Assembly: GCA_021161425.1 (NCBI GenBank)
Contig: JAGHAQ010000072.1
Coordinates: forward strand, 1-41,976
DNA length: 41,976 nt
DNA from: Candidatus Tharpella sp.
Lineage (GTDB): Bacteria; Desulfobacterota; Anaeroferrophillalia; Anaeroferrophillales; Tharpellaceae
Direction of reading: 5' to 3'
The translations under genes and the position numbers were made by a program. Below, piece after piece: positions 24,055 through 34,696 of the stretch. The notes beneath the pieces are model-generated. The model searched no databases, was not told the origin of the DNA, and saw only the letters and a list, made by a program, of their open reading frames with translations. The stretch's first letter is position 1; each line of letters opens with the position of its first letter.

Positions 24055-25014
24055 TTGCTTACAATGCCTTCTGAAAAGTTGAGACATCCGTTGTGGGTGA
24101 TGGGCAAACCCTATTACGATTTAAAGAGTTACTATCTGAACCATTTTGCCGAACGGGTCTACAAGGTTCAGATTGATGCCGGTTTTACCTGTCCTAACCG
24201 GGATGGCAGTCGTGGGTGGGGTGGCTGTAGCTACTGCGATGGACGGGGCTCTCAATTGCGTCAGCAGGGACCGTTGCCGAGTGTCCGTGAACAGCTTGAA
24301 GAGGGTAAACGACTCTATAAAAGATTACGTCAGGCGACCCGTTTTGTCGCTTATTTCCAGACGTTTACCAATACCTATGCGGAGTTACCAAAGCTTCGGC
24401 AACTCTATGAAGAGGCTCTTTCGGTCGACGAGGTAGTCGGTTTGTCGGTTGGTACCCGGCCCGATGCCATAACCGAGGAGGTGGTTGAGTTGCTGGCCGG
24501 GTTCAGCTCCGATTATGATGTCTGGATCGAATATGGTCTGCAGTCGATGCATGCCGAAAGTCTTGAGAGAATCAACCGAGGACACTCTCTGGAAGAGTTT
24601 GTTAAGGCGGTCGAGATGCTTTCCGGCAGCGGCATTAAACTTTGTGTGCACTTGATAATCGGCCTCCCATGGGAAAGCCGGGAGATGATTTTTCAGACCG
24701 CCGACTTTGTCGCTGGTCTGCCGGTTGACGGGGTTAAGATTCACTCTCTTCTGCTCCTTAAGGGAACCCCTCTCTATACAGATTTTCAGGCCCAACCTTT
24801 TTCTTTGCTGGATCGGGCCGAGTATGTCAGCCGGGTGGCCGGTTTTCTCGAACGATTGTCACCGGAAGTCGTGATCCAGAGGTTGACGGCCGAAGGTTAT
24901 CGGGATATTTTTGTCGCTCCTGACTGGGCTCGCAACAAGTTGCAGGTTTTGCAGCATCTGGACCGTTACCAGAAGGAACATGGTAGTTGTCAGGGCAGAA
25001 TGTGGTCTGAGTGA
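24055..25014 (+). CDS. TIGR01212-type (YtqA-like) radical SAM protein
   Basis: KVQIDAGFTCPNRDGSRGWGGCSYCDGRG cysteine cluster, FQTFTNTYAELPKLRQLYEEAL, HLIIGLPWESREMI, GVKIHSLLLLKGTPL. Confidence 0.9.
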   Translation: MLTMPSEKLRHPLWVMGKPYYDLKSYYLNHFAERVYKVQIDAGFTCPNRDGSRGWGGCSYCDGRGSQLRQQGPLPSVREQLEEGKRLYKRLRQATRFVAYFQTFTNTYAELPKLRQLYEEALSVDEVVGLSVGTRPDAITEEVVELLAGFSSDYDVWIEYGLQSMHAESLERINRGHSLEEFVKAVEMLSGSGIKLCVHLIIGLPWESREMIFQTADFVAGLPVDGVKIHSLLLLKGTPLYTDFQAQPFSLLDRAEYVSRVAGFLERLSPEVVIQRLTAEGYRDIFVAPDWARNKLQVLQHLDRYQKEHGSCQGRMWSE

Positions 25015-25117
25015 TTAATATACTAAGGGTAGTTCCAGGTTTTTGCTGTGAAACCGATGCTTTTTTGGGAATCGGTGAGGTTTTCTCGGGTGGGGAAAGA
25101 TTTTTTCGCAAAAAACA

Positions 25118-25147
25118 TTGACAGCTGAAATAACCGTATGGTAGTTT
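25118..25147 (+). promoter_or_regulatory. Promoter-like element TTGACA-18-TAGTTT upstream of the small ORF-zapB-zapA operon
   Basis: TTGACA 25118-25123; TAGTTT 25142-25147. Confidence 0.45.
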
Positions 25148-25177
25148 TTATTTAAGAACAAACGGAAATAGTTGGTG

Positions 25178-25372
25178 ATGGAGTCTTCAGGATTGACGGA
25201 CAAGACCAGATATCGAGCCGGGGAGCAGCCCCGACGTTATGGTTGCCGGGATTATTCCCTCGAGATGCAGCTCCTGCAGCTCAAAAAGAGAGAACTCTTG
25301 GTGAGTGGCCAGAGGGAGCGCCAACAAATCGAGGCTCGGATAAGAGAGATCGAGGACCAGTTAGGGATGTGA
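25178..25372 (+). CDS. Small charged hypothetical protein (~64 aa)
   Basis: ORF MESSGLTDKTRYRAGEQPRRYGCRDYSLEMQLLQLKKRELLVSGQRERQQIEARIREIEDQLGM; predicted C-terminal coiled coil; upstream of zapB-like and zapA. Confidence 0.55.
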   Translation: MESSGLTDKTRYRAGEQPRRYGCRDYSLEMQLLQLKKRELLVSGQRERQQIEARIREIEDQLGM

Positions 25373-25431
25373 GCGGGCTTGTAGATTTTGCCGCAGGGTC
25401 GTCCCGGTCATTAAGTTCAGAGAAGTTATTT

Positions 25432-25716
25432 ATGGAAAATGGTATGGAAAGTTTTGTCCGTTTGGAAAAAAGGACTTTGGCTTTAGGTCAGTGTTATCGG
25501 GAGGTTCTTGCAGAACGGGATCATTTGCAGCAAGTGGTTGAAAAACAGGCCCAGTCCCTGGCTGAGTTTGAGGCCAAAATAAACAGTCAGGATGATGTTT
25601 TTGCGGCAGTTGATGCAAAGATGGTCGAGTTGTTGCGGCAGATAGACAACTATCTTCCTGAAGAGAGTCAGGACCCTGGGAACGAGCAGGTTTTACCTGG
25701 AATGCATGGTAGCTGA
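25432..25716 (+). CDS. Small coiled-coil protein, ZapB-like
   Basis: Internal ATG at 25432: MENGMESFVRLEKRTLALGQCYREVLAERDHLQQVVEKQAQSLAEFEAKI; overlaps the zapA start. Confidence 0.6.
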   Translation: MENGMESFVRLEKRTLALGQCYREVLAERDHLQQVVEKQAQSLAEFEAKINSQDDVFAAVDAKMVELLRQIDNYLPEESQDPGNEQVLPGMHGS

Positions 25717-25999
25717 GAAAAATAGCGTTACGATAACTATTCGTGGCAAGAAATATCCACTTCGTACTGAAGCTGACAGTCAGCGTGTGCAGCAGGTGGT
25801 TGAGTTTGTAAATCACCGACTTGATGAGCTCGATCATCAAGTCGGCATAAAGCACAAGACCGGAGTTTCTGATATCAGATTGGTGATGCTGGCTCTTTTG
25901 AATATCGCGGATGAGTGTCTTACTCATCAACAGAATCTTGGCGAGATAAAAGAGCGATCGGAAGACTTGCTGGCCGAGATATCTTCTCTTGAATTGTGA
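25706..25999 (+). CDS. zapA: Cell division protein ZapA
   Basis: VTITIRGKKYPLRTEADSQRVQQVVEFVNHRLDEL...DIRLVMLALLNIADECL matches the ZapA family. Confidence 0.88.
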   Translation: MVAEKNSVTITIRGKKYPLRTEADSQRVQQVVEFVNHRLDELDHQVGIKHKTGVSDIRLVMLALLNIADECLTHQQNLGEIKERSEDLLAEISSLEL

Positions 26000-26011
26000 A
26001 AAAGTGTTTGT

Positions 26012-26222
26012 GTAATCCTAGTGAGGTAATATATAGTTTGCTCCCCTGAGTTATACGTGATAAGTGAACATTTTTTTGAGCCAACACCTTTTATTTACAG
26101 GGTGGTCTTTTAAATCCGGTGTGAACTACCCCTTGGGGACAGTCCTGAAGGATTTATGATCACCAATATTAAAATTTAAGGTTCAAAGAAAGCACCTACA
26201 CGGTAACCTGGGGGGGATCGAT
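26012..26222 (+). ncRNA. ssrS: Probable 6S RNA (boundaries approximate)
   Basis: Directly downstream of zapA; CCCCTGAG at 26043-26050 (6S central-bubble-like motif); long irregular rod with GGTGGTC 26101-26107 / GATCACC 26158-26164 and AAATCC 26112-26117 / GGATTT 26150-26155; 3' side CACCTACACGGTAACCTGGGG; a partial closing pair ATC..AGGT / ACCT..GAT. Not confirmed by a covariance model. Confidence 0.55.
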
Positions 26223-26252
26223 GGGTCTGCCGAAAGGCGACTCCCGGTAACG

Positions 26253-26294
26253 CCGTCAGGCTGTGCGTTGAGCATGACCTGACGGTTCGTTTTT
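26253..26294 (+). terminator. Hairpin plus T-run downstream of the putative 6S RNA
   Basis: CCGTCAGG (26253-26260) / CCTGACGG (26278-26285) followed by TTCGTTTTT. Confidence 0.55.
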
Positions 26295-26475
26295 GAATGT
26301 ATTAAGCGGGTTGCTAGGAGCAATGATTTTTTGTTACTCCAATTGCCCGATTGAGATAGATAGAGAATCGAAGAGCTGTTCCTTTATCATAATAATAAGG
26401 GTGCAGATGAGTAAAAAAGTCTTTTTTAAGCCGATGACAGTTCAGGTTGAAGCTTCGATATGGTGACATTAAGTT

Positions 26476-26551
26476 CAAGGGTTAGTTATGAACGAGACTA
26501 TAGTATATGGTTTTATCACCTATTATCTCGAACGAATTTAAAAAACCCTTG
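26476..26551 (+). ncRNA. Candidate structured RNA element, long interrupted stem-loop
   Basis: CAAGGGTT 26476-26483 / AACCCTTG 26544-26551 enclosing CGAGA 26493-26497 / TCTCG 26526-26530 and ATA/TAT, GGT/ACC. Confidence 0.4.
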
Positions 26552-26648
26552 ACGACTCTGGTTCAAAGTTGATGTTTCCTCTGGCACTACTGCGATACTG
26601 TTAAAAGCTGATTTTAAATAGGTTTGTGGGGCCTAAGATCGTTGTCGG

Positions 26649-26722
26649 GTCTCCTCCGAACCGAGACTGGCAAAAGGTTAGTTGATGGGTGGGTAACTCT
26701 TTTCGGCCAGCCCTTCTTTTTT
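26649..26722 (+). terminator. Tandem hairpins ending in a T-run upstream of rny (possible sRNA 3' end or rny leader terminator)
   Basis: GTCTC 26649-26653 / GAGAC 26663-26667, then CTGGC-AAAAG-g-TTA ... TAA-ct-CTTTT-cg-GCCAG (26667-26710) followed by CCCTTCTTTTTT. Confidence 0.5.
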
Positions 26723-26902
26723 GACCTTTGTTCCTCTCCTCTCCTTTCTGATCTCTTCTTTTCTCTTTCTCCGGGCAGGTTTTAGCTATAAGCCGCACTG
26801 TTTCGCAGGGCGGATAATTTTCTGTTGTAACCGACAGGAAGCTGTTGTTAGTGTATGGCTTAAGCCATCTTTGATGATAGCTATAAAGGGGAGTTTTTTA
26901 AT

Positions 26903-28456
26903 ATGGAATTAATGCTTACATATGTCATTGTCGCATTGGTAGCAATGGTCGCAGGTTTTCTGGTCAATCGTAAGGTCTCCGAAAAAAGTAATGAAGTATC
27001 CCGTAAGGAAGCTGATTTGCTGATTAATGAAGCTCGTAAAGAGGCTGATCTGTTGCGTAAAGAGGCGGCCTTGCAGGCTAAGGATGTTGTCTTGAAGGCC
27101 AAGTCTGATTTTGAATCGGATATGGTCGAGCGCCGTAAAGAGATGCAAGGGCTGGAGAAACGTTTGCTCAGTAAAGAGGAAAGCCTGGAAAGACGGGTTG
27201 AGAATGTCGACAAGAAAGATGATGATCTTGGTCGTCGGGAACAGAGTCTGATTCAGCGAGATAAAAATGTTCAAGTTAAGGAGAAAGAGGTTCAAGGGGT
27301 TTTGCAGCAAGAGAGGGATGAGCTTGAAAGCATCGCTGGCCTGACTCAGACCGAAGCTAAAGAGACCTTGATGAAGTTGATGGAGGATGCGGCCAAGCAT
27401 GAATCGGCCAAACGAGTTAAGCAGATTGAGGATGAAGCCAAGGAAACATCCGAAAAACGGGCGGTAAAGATTATTGCCCAGGCGGTTCAGCGTTATGCCG
27501 GTGACTATGCTACTGAGCGGACGGTTTCGGTTGTGCATCTGCCTGGTGATGATATGAAAGGTCGAATCATTGGTCGTGAGGGTCGTAATATCCGGGCCAT
27601 TGAAGCAGCTACCGGGGTTGACCTGATTATTGACGATACTCCTGAAGCGGTTATTATATCATCTTTTGATCCGGTACGCCGGGCTGTGGCCAAAAATGCT
27701 CTTGAACGTCTAATTTGTGATGGTCGTATTCATCCGGCCCGGATTGAAGAAGTTGTCAATAAGGTTCAGGGTGAGATCGATTTGACCATTAAAGATGCTG
27801 GTGAAAAAGCGATCTTTGATTTAGGTATGCACGGTATGAACCCTGAATTGATTCGCATGATCGGGCGTTTGAAGTATCGAACCAGCTACACCCAAAATAT
27901 CTATGAGCACTCTTTAGAGGTTGCTTTTATCTGCGGCATGATGGCTGATGAATTAAAACTCCCCAACAAGACGGCTCGGCGGGCCGGTCTTCTCCATGAC
28001 ATTGGTAAAGCCATGGATCATGAGATTGAGGGCTCCCATGCGGTTATCGGAGCCGATTTTGCCAGGCGTCATGGCGAAGCTCCAGAGATTGTCCAGGCGA
28101 TCGAGGCTCATCATGGTGATGTTGAGATCAAGCATCCCCTTGATGTTCTGGTGCAGGCCGCCGATGCCCTCTCCGGGGCCCGGCCGGGAGCTCGTAAAGA
28201 GATGCTTGATGCCTACATTAAACGTCTTGAGGCCCTTGAAGATATTGGTAACTCCTTTAAAGGGGTTGAAAAAACTTTTGCCATTCAGGCCGGTCGTGAT
28301 GTGCGGGTGATGGTCAATCATGAGGATATCAGCGATGCAGACGCGGTCGTTTTGTCGCGTGATATTGCCGGAAAAATCGAGAAAGAGCTGACCTATCCCG
28401 GACAGATTCGGGTGACTGTGATTCGTGAGACCAGGGCTTTCGGTGTGGCCAAATAG
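26903..28456 (+). CDS. rny: Ribonuclease Y
   Basis: N-terminal TM, long coiled coil, KH domain [33 protein letters not shown] domain [22 protein letters not shown]. Confidence 0.97.
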
Positions 28457-29660: not shown

Positions 29661-31790
29661 CTAGTCACGAAGCTCATCAAGCAGTGTCTCTATTCTTTTA
29701 AGCTCTTCTGTTTTTATGGCAGTTGTCAGTCGGTCGTCGCCGGCAAGTTGTTCGGAGTGTTCCAGAGCCATTTCCGTACTTGTCAAAAGGTCGATAAAAA
29801 AGGTGCTTGTCAGCTCACGACATTCTTCAATATGGTGACGCAGGAAGGCGTATTTGAGTTGCTCTCGAAAGTTTCCCAGCCAGCGAGGTAACTCTTTAAG
29901 AGTTGCCTTTTTCAGTTGTTGTCCATACTCTTCGCCAAGTGGTCGGCGATTTTTAAGGCGGGTTATTTTTTTGCTCCAGAGCACGGCCAGGTCGTGAATC
30001 TTGTCGATAATGGCGAAACGTTCTTCGGCTTGACTGATCATCGTAAACTCTGGCATCTCTCCGTCGATTTTAACCGGTAACGGGAGCTCCTCCTGAGTGG
30101 CACTCTCCTTTCCGATAAGGTTGTCGCAGAGAATAAAAAGCGGAGCACAGCCATTTAACAGGCGCTCATTGATCTCCTGGTGTAAAGATGCCAAGAATTT
30201 TACGGTCTCGATAACCACCCTCTCTCTGAGTTGAGGTGGAATGGTGATCTGAAAGTGGTTGTCGATGATTCGAACCGGGGTTAATGGGTTGCGGCTTTTT
30301 TCCGGCAAGAGCTCAAGAGGAGGATGATAACTGTCAATTATCCGGCTCAAATATCTGTGCAGGCTGTTGCCTCCCTTATCATTTAGCCAATTCGTGATTC
30401 TAATATAGCTGTATTTCTCGATATCGGTACAGATTCCGGTAATGATACGCTCGGTCTCTTTGAGGATAGCATCGATTTTATGACGGTTGGCATGTTGGCA
30501 GGTTTGGTCTGAGCTTAACGTATCATCCTCTGTTGAGAGTCGGGTGAGTTGGTTTGCAATCAGGCGTTGTGTGCTGCCGACAATCTGTTGTAGGCGTTTT
30601 TCACTGTGTTGTAGCAGCGCAGTGGTGGCCTCATTTTCCCCCAGATCAATCAGGCGGTTCAGAAAATCTTCCGCACCTTTGGTTGAGGTTGCAAGTTTTT
30701 CGCCTTCCTCCTGCCATCGCGCAAAACGTTGTTGACAGGCTTTATTTAATTGGGCAAAGATTTCCGGCCGGGACCAGAAAAGGGCAAGTGCTGAGAAAGC
30801 ATAGAGCGGTTGGGTGAAGCCCAGTTCCCGCAGCTCTTCAGTGCAGCGATCAATTATGGTTCCAAGTTCTTTTTTGTTGGGATGTTCATCAAGGTCGAGG
30901 TTTATAACGAAGAGCAGGCGTTCTTCCAGGCCTAGTTCTCGCAGATGTTCGAGCAATTGATAGTCGGCCTGACGCAGACCGATACGGCTGCTGATAACAT
31001 AGATAAGGGCCGGGCTTTCACCAAGCTGCTGGACGATAACGCTCTGATGACTGGGGTTGGGGGTGTCTAGGCCGGGCAGGTCTCGTAAAGCCAGGTATGG
31101 GGGTAGTAGTTTAAGGGCGGCCTTGATCTGGATGCCGAGCAGGTAAGGGGATAGGGTCTCATCGCGGATGAATAGTCGATAACGATGATCGTCGGGGTTG
31201 TTGATTATGAAATCAAGTTGTTGGTTAAGGTAATGCTCGGCAACCTTCTCCGCGCCATTGATGAGGTTACGTAAGAGGCGATAGGATTCGTTGAAAATGC
31301 CGTGTCGGGTAAGAGTGCTACGGTGTTGGTAATTATTGAGCAGGGCATCAATTTGCAAGCGGTCGCCCGCTTTGAAAAGAGAGAGTTGGCGCTCACCTAA
31401 ATCATCACTGAAGAGTAGGTTGACGGCCTGGGCAAACATTTCATTGATGGTGGTTTCGGGCTGCAGTTCAATGTGAGCGGAAAAGTTTTTGCCGGTACTT
31501 ACGGTTGTGGGGAAACTGGTGGTTATGCCGGCTCCGGTTGGCAATAGGTCGGCTCCGGCCAGGGTGTTTATGAGGGTGCTTTTGCCCGATTTGACCGGAC
31601 CTATGCAGGTGACGGGTAAGCTAAAGCTGGTGCGTAAGTCAGCCAAAGTCGTAAGGGTCTGGCGCCAGCGTTGCAGGTGGTTATTGCCTTGCGGCCAGTC
31701 GGTTTCAAGCTTTGCAAGAATGTTGTCAAGTTTTTTTGTTCTGGCACTGAAGGTTTTTGCCGGTTCGTTGTCGAGGCTGTTTTTGGTCAT
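29661..31790 (-). CDS. Dynamin-like large GTPase
   Basis: ~709 aa; P-loop CIGPVKSGKSTLINTLAGADLLPTGAGITT, switch II LRDLPGLDTP, long helical C-terminal part. ATG at 31790 (MTKNSLDNEPAK) preferred to the track start at 31853. Confidence 0.8.
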   Translation of the reverse strand: MTKNSLDNEPAKTFSARTKKLDNILAKLETDWPQGNNHLQRWRQTLTTLADLRTSFSLPVTCIGPVKSGKSTLINTLAGADLLPTGAGITTSFPTTVSTGKNFSAHIELQPETTINEMFAQAVNLLFSDDLGERQLSLFKAGDRLQIDALLNNYQHRSTLTRHGIFNESYRLLRNLINGAEKVAEHYLNQQLDFIINNPDDHRYRLFIRDETLSPYLLGIQIKAALKLLPPYLALRDLPGLDTPNPSHQSVIVQQLGESPALIYVISSRIGLRQADYQLLEHLRELGLEERLLFVINLDLDEHPNKKELGTIIDRCTEELRELGFTQPLYAFSALALFWSRPEIFAQLNKACQQRFARWQEEGEKLATSTKGAEDFLNRLIDLGENEATTALLQHSEKRLQQIVGSTQRLIANQLTRLSTEDDTLSSDQTCQHANRHKIDAILKETERIITGICTDIEKYSYIRITNWLNDKGGNSLHRYLSRIIDSYHPPLELLPEKSRNPLTPVRIIDNHFQITIPPQLRERVVIETVKFLASLHQEINERLLNGCAPLFILCDNLIGKESATQEELPLPVKIDGEMPEFTMISQAEERFAIIDKIHDLAVLWSKKITRLKNRRPLGEEYGQQLKKATLKELPRWLGNFREQLKYAFLRHHIEECRELTSTFFIDLLTSTEMALEHSEQLAGDDRLTTAIKTEELKRIETLLDELRD

Positions 31791-32000
31791 AGTTATCAGT
31801 TTAAAGTCAAGAAATAGAGTGTTTTTCGGGCGAACCCGACTTTCTGGGCGCAATTTGCGAGATTTTTGCTGGTTAATTAACGAGAATTGGGTCAGGTCGG
31901 GTGTTGTTTGTGTTTGATTGATAAAATATTATGGCACAATGATGGAGTTGATGCAAGATGTAAAATGATTTGTAAAGAATATCCCGGGGCTATTTTCTGC

Positions 32001-32053: not shown

Positions 32054-32126
32054 GGGCCCATAGCTCAGCTGGAAGAGCCACCGGCTCATAACCGGTAGGT
32101 CCCTGGTTCGAACCCAGGTGGGCCCA
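32054..32126 (+). tRNA. tRNA with CAT anticodon (elongator tRNA-Met or lysidine-modified tRNA-Ile2); CCA not encoded
   Basis: Cloverleaf GGGCCCA-TA-GCTC-AGCTGGAA-GAGC-C-ACCGG-CTCATAA-CCGGT-AGGTC-CCTGG-TTCGAAC-CCAGG-TGGGCCC-A. Confidence 0.95.
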
Positions 32127-34260: not shown

Positions 34261-34696
34261 TAGGCCGGAGTAGGCTGGATGATCGCTGGTGACTCTCCCC
34301 GCAGGCGTGAGGAGAGGCGCGGGAGGAAAGTCCGAACACCACAGAGCAGGATGCTTCGTAACGCGAAGTCCTGGTGACAGGCAGGCAAGTGCCACAGAAA
34401 ATAGACCGCCCTCGGTGTTAGCCGAGGGTAAGGGTGAAACGGTGAGGTAAGAGCTCACCAGTGCCGATGGTGACATCGGTAGCTTGGTAAACCCCATCCG
34501 GTGCAAGGCCAAATAGGTTTCGTTGTCTTCTTTATGGAGATTGAGGCGGCTCGTCTCAAGTGATTTGCTGGTGACAGCAGATTCGGCGAAGCGGGTAGGC
34601 TGCTTGAGGTTGCGAGCAATTGTAACCCTAGATGAATGGTCATCACTTCCGCTTGGCGGAAGCACAGAATTCGGCTTACAGGCCTGCTCCGGCCTA
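34261..34696 (+). ncRNA. rnpB: RNase P RNA (bacterial class A)
   Basis: P1 helix TAGGCCGGAGTAGGC / GCCTGCTCCGGCCTA; GAGGAAAGTCCGAACACCACAGAGCAGGATGC, GACAGGCAGGCAAGTGCCACAGAAAATAGACCGCC, AAGGGTGAAACGGTGAGGTAAGAGCTCACCAG, GGTAAACCCCATCCGGTGCAAGGCCAAATAG, AATGGTCATCACT..ACAGAATTCGGCTTACA. Confidence 0.98.

Follow-up and report, generated by a model that had tools for sequence, protein, structure and literature searches.

A conserved structured RNA between 6S RNA and rny in Candidatus Tharpella, a probable modular leader of the RNase Y gene

Few feedback points are known to set the global rate of mRNA decay, and leaders of ribonuclease genes belong to these. In Escherichia coli, the rne5 element (RF00040) is part of the 5′ UTR of the RNase E gene, and the hairpins of this leader are used for feedback. 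The E. coli 6S gene follows zapA and precedes a protein gene (ssrS-ygfA). The locus described here resembles this arrangement in that 6S RNA is encoded between zapA and a protein gene, but differs from it in the identity of the downstream gene, which here and in all 30 phylum loci sampled is rny. In Bacillus subtilis, rny is autoregulated partly via its 5′ UTR and also via the early ORF; this UTR of 160 nt is cut at several positions that follow no defined motif (PMC10303841). RNase Y is described as cleaving AU-rich single strands in the vicinity of structure, at a G or near one (PMC10303841).

The zapA-6S-rny locus and its relatives

The window (the whole stretch of DNA analysed, 41,976 nucleotides from Candidatus Tharpella sp.) belongs to an assembly that is 63% complete. 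It contains a 903-nt gap (26000-26902) flanked, according to Pfam, by zapA (PF05164, 53.8 bits) and rny (PF12072, 191.5 bits; KH and HD domains), with ymdB (PF13277) next after rny. The window also encodes a dynamin-family GTPase (PF00350) at 29661-31853 on the - strand, opposite rny and ymdB, a tRNA at 32054-32126 and a class A RNase P RNA (308.5 bits) at 34267-34694, whereas no tRNA or tmRNA was found in 25000-28000. As the original prediction held, there is no credible long ORF in the gap. Neither of the two ORFs tested (53-57 aa) has a Pfam match and the homologous gaps carry frame-breaking indels, so that a protein-coding gap was rejected.

The class as sampled comprises 22 genomes in two families. 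Homologous gaps were taken from congeners, from other genera of the family and from the second family of the order, with at most 12 sequences per element within the genus. Wherever a contig spans the locus, relatives from the genus, the family and the order retain the arrangement zapA-6S-gap-rny, with gaps that measure 736-1250 nt; the locus of one genome, G012, is divided between two contigs at a repeated insert. The features of the window referred to below are as follows.

26040-26218, + strand: 6S RNA (ssrS), Rfam RF00013
26219-26247, + strand: hairpin B1, directly 3′ of 6S, folding in 11/11 homologs despite sequence change
26252-26294, + strand: hairpin B2 (26252-26286) and degenerate U-tract, from folding and conservation
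26307-26349, + strand: P5 stem, CGGGU..GCCCG, with variable inner hairpin; mean z -2.6 in 11 homologs
26350-26375, + strand: purine-rich conserved single strand, AUUGAGAUA..AGAGAAUYGAAGAG, from alignments
26376-26427, + strand: P6 hairpin (26376-26406), spacer AUGNGNAA and small P7 hairpin, from folding, covariation and model R2
26476-26552, + strand: long interrupted stem-loop, clade-restricted and weakly supported
26607-26620, + strand: box D, GCUGAUUYUARAUA, conserved in alignments
26621-26662, + strand: P4 helix, from covariation in clade B and model R3
26663-26677, + strand: conserved single strand GAGACUGGCAAAAG, from alignments and R3
26684-26722, + strand: weak terminator-like hairpin and T-run; mean z -1.05
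26712-26771, + strand: polypyrimidine tract (55/60), from composition
26793-26813, + strand: P1 hairpin, from covariation with P2 and model R1
26812-26822, + strand: linker GGAUAAUUUUC between P1 and P2, a candidate nuclease site
26822-26837, + strand: P2 hairpin, both-sided changes in 4/6 pairs
26840-26882, + strand: P3 hairpin, ending just 5′ of the Shine-Dalgarno sequence, from folding
26885-26893, + strand: Shine-Dalgarno sequence of rny, AAAGGGGAG
26903-28456, + strand: rny (RNase Y), PF12072, KH/HD domains

The 6S RNA proposed in the original prediction is placed by Rfam at 26040-26218 with 65.7 bits against a gathering cutoff of 46.4. The match is full length (model positions 1-187 of 187) and confirms, at the level of sequence and model, the identity of this segment; 6S was also found by Rfam in 14 of 14 relative loci scanned. 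A cmscan search of the gap to E<=10, which the original prediction had recommended, recovered 6S and no other match over cutoff, the single further listing being a chance P31 match of 15.6 bits, far under its cutoff. Likewise, 6S alone was detected in 14 homologous loci searched with Rfam at E<=1, with no catalogued cis-regulatory element or riboswitch.

Across the phylum, rny lies downstream of 6S in every one of the 30 6S loci sampled (L074-L103), and the two are spaced by roughly 130 to 1240 nt. This makes the linkage a general one, whereas the long structured spacer is not: the structured leader described below was found in this family alone. A structured 6S-rny spacer common to the phylum was also considered and proved unsupported, with a mean z of -1.2 over 14 spacers. 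Several compact 6S-rny spacers of other families (L083, L091, L102 and L080) fold well on their own, with z of -2.1 to -3.8, and inspection by eye identified a GGAGGUAAA motif within complementary flanks in L083, L091 and L095. This arrangement is possibly an unrelated rny leader. No description of the linkage came up in a targeted literature search that combined 6S RNA with ribonuclease Y, zapA and Geobacter. The linkage itself raises the question of whether transcription control is coupled to mRNA decay.

Structural modules downstream of 6S RNA

Each module was folded separately in up to 11 homologs and compared with dinucleotide shuffles, a procedure that requires anchors but no base-by-base alignment, and the middle region (about 26430-26606) served as internal control. 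Covariation was scored against 500 shuffles, not with R-scape, and partners were also slid as a control. As the sequences are related, the shuffle counts overstate significance; as the structures were derived from the same sequences, the slid controls lean toward the structures drawn. Held-out tests are the stronger evidence. Covariance models were made of P1/P2 (R1, genus only), P6/P7 (R2) and P4 (R3, clade B only); all three locate their elements in the 6S-rny gap only and recovered held-out relatives in place.

The best-supported structure is the three-hairpin element P1-GGAUAAUU-P2-P3 (26793-26882), directly 5′ of the rny ribosome-binding site. GGAUAAUU is kept in 14 of the 14 homologs where the element was read, and the mean z in 11 homologs is -2.6 for P1 and -3.95 for P2 together with P3. 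Within P1/P2, 96.2% of cells are paired, both-sided changes occur in 7 of 13 pairs and the covariation score is 0.429, compared with 0.272 for shuffled (0/500) and at most 0.22 for slid partners. R1 yields one strong, rny-proximal match (63-82 bits) in 12 of 13 genus genomes, most of which had served to train the model; no other score in the order exceeds about 21 bits. Loci from outside the genus, 27 kb in all, provide an independent test of R1: they contain only two matches, of 12.2 and 9.3 bits, both of which fall at the orthologous site in held-out genomes of a second genus. The rny-proximal element was undetected in family f2, and none was convincing elsewhere in the phylum. Weak R1 matches of 23-26 bits elsewhere in the phylum, checked in part, were treated as chance because the three that were fetched lacked rny.

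At the opposite end of the gap, B1 and B2 together reach a mean z of -6.7 in 11 homologs. The terminator-like hairpin of the original prediction (26253-26294) withstood comparison, as it beats shuffles in the window sequence (z -3.1), and B2 is kept in 12 of 12 genus sequences examined, with 99.4% of cells paired. Changes in B2 are mostly absent or one-sided, and since the hairpin is nearly invariant, its support comes from conservation and stability, not from covariation. The U-tract is missing in several relatives. We read B2 as a putative terminator-like or 6S 3′-processing hairpin. For P6, the mean z is -3.5, and the covariation of P6/P7 amounts to 0.352 versus 0.264 for shuffled (1/500) in a crude alignment. 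R2 recovers both L014, a sequence unused in the model (29.4 bits), and L011 from a third genus (14.6 bits), each in place; a search of 297 phylum genomes outside the genus gave nothing convincing.

The P4 helix has a mean z of -2.6, strong in clade B and mixed in clade A. In clade B, 97.2% of cells are paired and covariation is 0.567 versus 0.407 for shuffled (0/500), with slid partners at 0.22 or below. The clade B model R3 finds three clade A members in place (26-32 bits), among them the window at 26607-26714 (26 bits), and locates L011, of another genus, in place as well (21 bits); across the order no further match was observed at E <= 0.1. Box D may also pair over a long range with the 3′ side of P7. 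This helix outscores all control segments in 6 of 11 species, but a species' own and cross-species partners barely differ, so the pairing is suggestive only.

Two structures of the original prediction stood in part. The long interrupted stem-loop (26476-26551) is a real inverted repeat with arms 86% complementary (z -2.2), yet it is weak and limited to part of one clade: of 5 alignable sequences, 4 are predicted to adopt its topology, z ranges from -2.4 to +0.9, a single compensatory change was seen by eye, L004 has it deleted and the second clade has no counterpart. The tandem hairpins (26649-26722) show no excess stability over shuffles (z +0.33), but they overlap conserved features, as the segment holds the 3′ arm of P4, the conserved single strand GAGACUGGCAAAA and the weak terminator-like hairpin, whose T-run recurs in several but not all relatives. 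The original prediction did not list P5, P6/P7 or, most importantly, the P1-P2-P3 element beside the rny start.

The middle region displays no significant structure (mean z -0.85). Consensus folding of clade A concurs, with z of about -8 for B2, an alifold z of -11.9 for P1-P3 and a flat middle. The homologous gaps of up to 12 congeners, and those of further genera in the family, show conserved structures 3′ of 6S, with clear covariation in P1/P2 and in P4 (measured in one clade) and moderate covariation in P6. Alignment of relatives for synteny and covariation, as the original prediction had proposed, revealed both conservation and covariation, the reverse of the outcome that it had named as speaking against it. 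As far as sequence comparison can tell, about 680 nt 3′ of 6S are uncatalogued in Rfam, folded and kept by relatives, and we have little doubt that the gap beyond 6S holds a real conserved structured RNA.

A probable cis-acting leader and its alternatives

Beyond 6S, the long regulated rny leader of the original prediction is the best-supported reading: in relatives, the element with the strongest covariation extends to the Shine-Dalgarno sequence of rny, and no convincing copy was found elsewhere in the genomes searched. Because P1-GGAUAAUU-P2-P3 ends at this site and is found nowhere else, a role in cis on rny is likely, and we are fairly confident that the structured RNA acts in this way. 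On balance we favour the fuller reading, in which 6S is followed by a modular structured 5′ leader that would confer cis-acting, post-transcriptional control on rny. The gap is here assumed to be transcribed as one leader; its transcription as leader, its cleavage and the feedback are what we infer.

The modules appear to be separable. Both P6/P7 and the middle region are missing from L004. The G012 gap is broken at two places by MITE-like copies with ends TAACTATTCAGC, and in G007 and G011 a diverged copy has box D on one side and the GAGA strand on the other. Taken together, the inserts and the deletion make one indivisible leader unlikely. In G012, P1-P3 is intact shortly 3′ of a MITE-like copy and so appears to work alone beside rny. 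Copies of the MITE-like family are mostly 126-150 bp long with ends TAACTATTCAGC/GCTGAATAGTTA, number up to 33 with exact ends in one genome, and occur in G011, G007, G008 and other congeners, including the 6S-rny gap of at least three (homologous gaps L014, L005 and L006); the end sequence is absent from the window.

Modules of this kind might instead be one or more independent trans-acting sRNAs between 6S and rny, with only P1-P3 as the rny leader, an explanation that we consider unlikely. Of the additional sRNAs suggested by the original prediction, what stands is that P4 plus the T-run could form a separate small transcript, for example P4-GAGACUGGCAAAA-terminator of about 100 nt starting just after box D. 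Among the modules upstream of P1-P3, P4 covaries best; a conserved single strand comes next and then, in several relatives, a hairpin with T-run, and box D sits where a -10 element would be. Promoter evidence, however, did not emerge: no -35-like hexamer was seen by eye at fixed spacing 5′ of box D, and a pattern scan for sigma-70-like sites finds no promoter-like site there. The terminator is also weak (mean z -1.05), with the T-run missing in some relatives, and in L005 and L006 the MITE-like insert separates box D from the GAGA strand.

An attenuator or riboswitch-like leader, in which the upstream modules would respond to a ligand or protein and act on the terminator near 26684-26722 or on sequestration of the Shine-Dalgarno sequence by the pyrimidine tract, seems to us more doubtful still. 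The order of sensor-like structure, terminator-like hairpin, pyrimidine tract and Shine-Dalgarno sequence would suit it. No other 60 nt on either strand of the window are as rich in pyrimidines as the tract, which is partly complementary to the rny Shine-Dalgarno sequence in the window and in several species; it could sequester that sequence or serve to load Rho. This complementarity is mostly not above composition-matched shuffles and amounts to a trend only, no Rfam riboswitch matches, and the modules were not found before other genes, unlike most metabolite riboswitches. That 6S alone is functional and the other hairpins are chance folds or relics of terminators in a spacer free of constraint is highly improbable, for despite the unstructured middle (about 26430-26606, mean z -0.85) and compact spacers elsewhere in the phylum (about 130-300 nt) that are mostly no more structured than shuffles, covariation and held-out recovery of P1/P2, P4 and P6 largely refute it.

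For the cis-acting rny leader, we propose that RNase Y abundance is most likely governed post-transcriptionally by the P1-GGAUAAUU-P2-P3-Shine-Dalgarno module. In this view a nuclease would enter at, or recognise, the AU-rich linker between two hairpins, P3 would hold the adjacent Shine-Dalgarno sequence in a defined context, and free RNase Y, the likeliest cutter of the linker, would shorten the life of its own mRNA. Being single-stranded in the predicted fold, AU-rich, hairpin-flanked and begun by a G, the linker fits the preference of RNase Y (PMC10303841). RNase E/G is encoded in 22 of 22 genomes and RNase J scores over cutoff in 17 of 22, so that the cutting nuclease could be another. RNase feedback as the mechanism, which the original prediction had suggested in the form of RNase Y autoregulation, is put forward tentatively. 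The B hairpins, P5, P6/P7, P4 and the weak terminator may tune 6S 3′-end formation and the transcription that reaches rny. A point against the leader reading is that B2 and the weak terminator might cut rny off from the modules upstream. A bolder view would couple 6S, as global regulator of RNA polymerase, and synthesis of the decay enzyme RNase Y in one transcript by an uncatalogued modular RNA family of ~680 nt, with 6S processing and RNase Y level set together via nuclease sites in the shared leader; we regard it as speculative and improbable.

Comparison with described ribonuclease leaders

Like rne5, the gap carries hairpins in the probable leader of an endoribonuclease gene, which makes that element a candidate for a system that may work alike; it differs in the gene concerned, and RF00040 is unmatched in the gap and in 14 homologous loci. 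A defined, covarying rny leader would provide a candidate RNase Y substrate outside Firmicutes. The B. subtilis rny 5′ UTR (PMC10303841) is the leader of the same gene and likewise combines a hairpin and a nearby AU-rich single strand, with a strong Shine-Dalgarno sequence after them. In contrast to that UTR, the element described here, known from sequence, combines covarying hairpins with an invariant GGAUAAUU, belongs to another lineage and lies behind 6S RNA.
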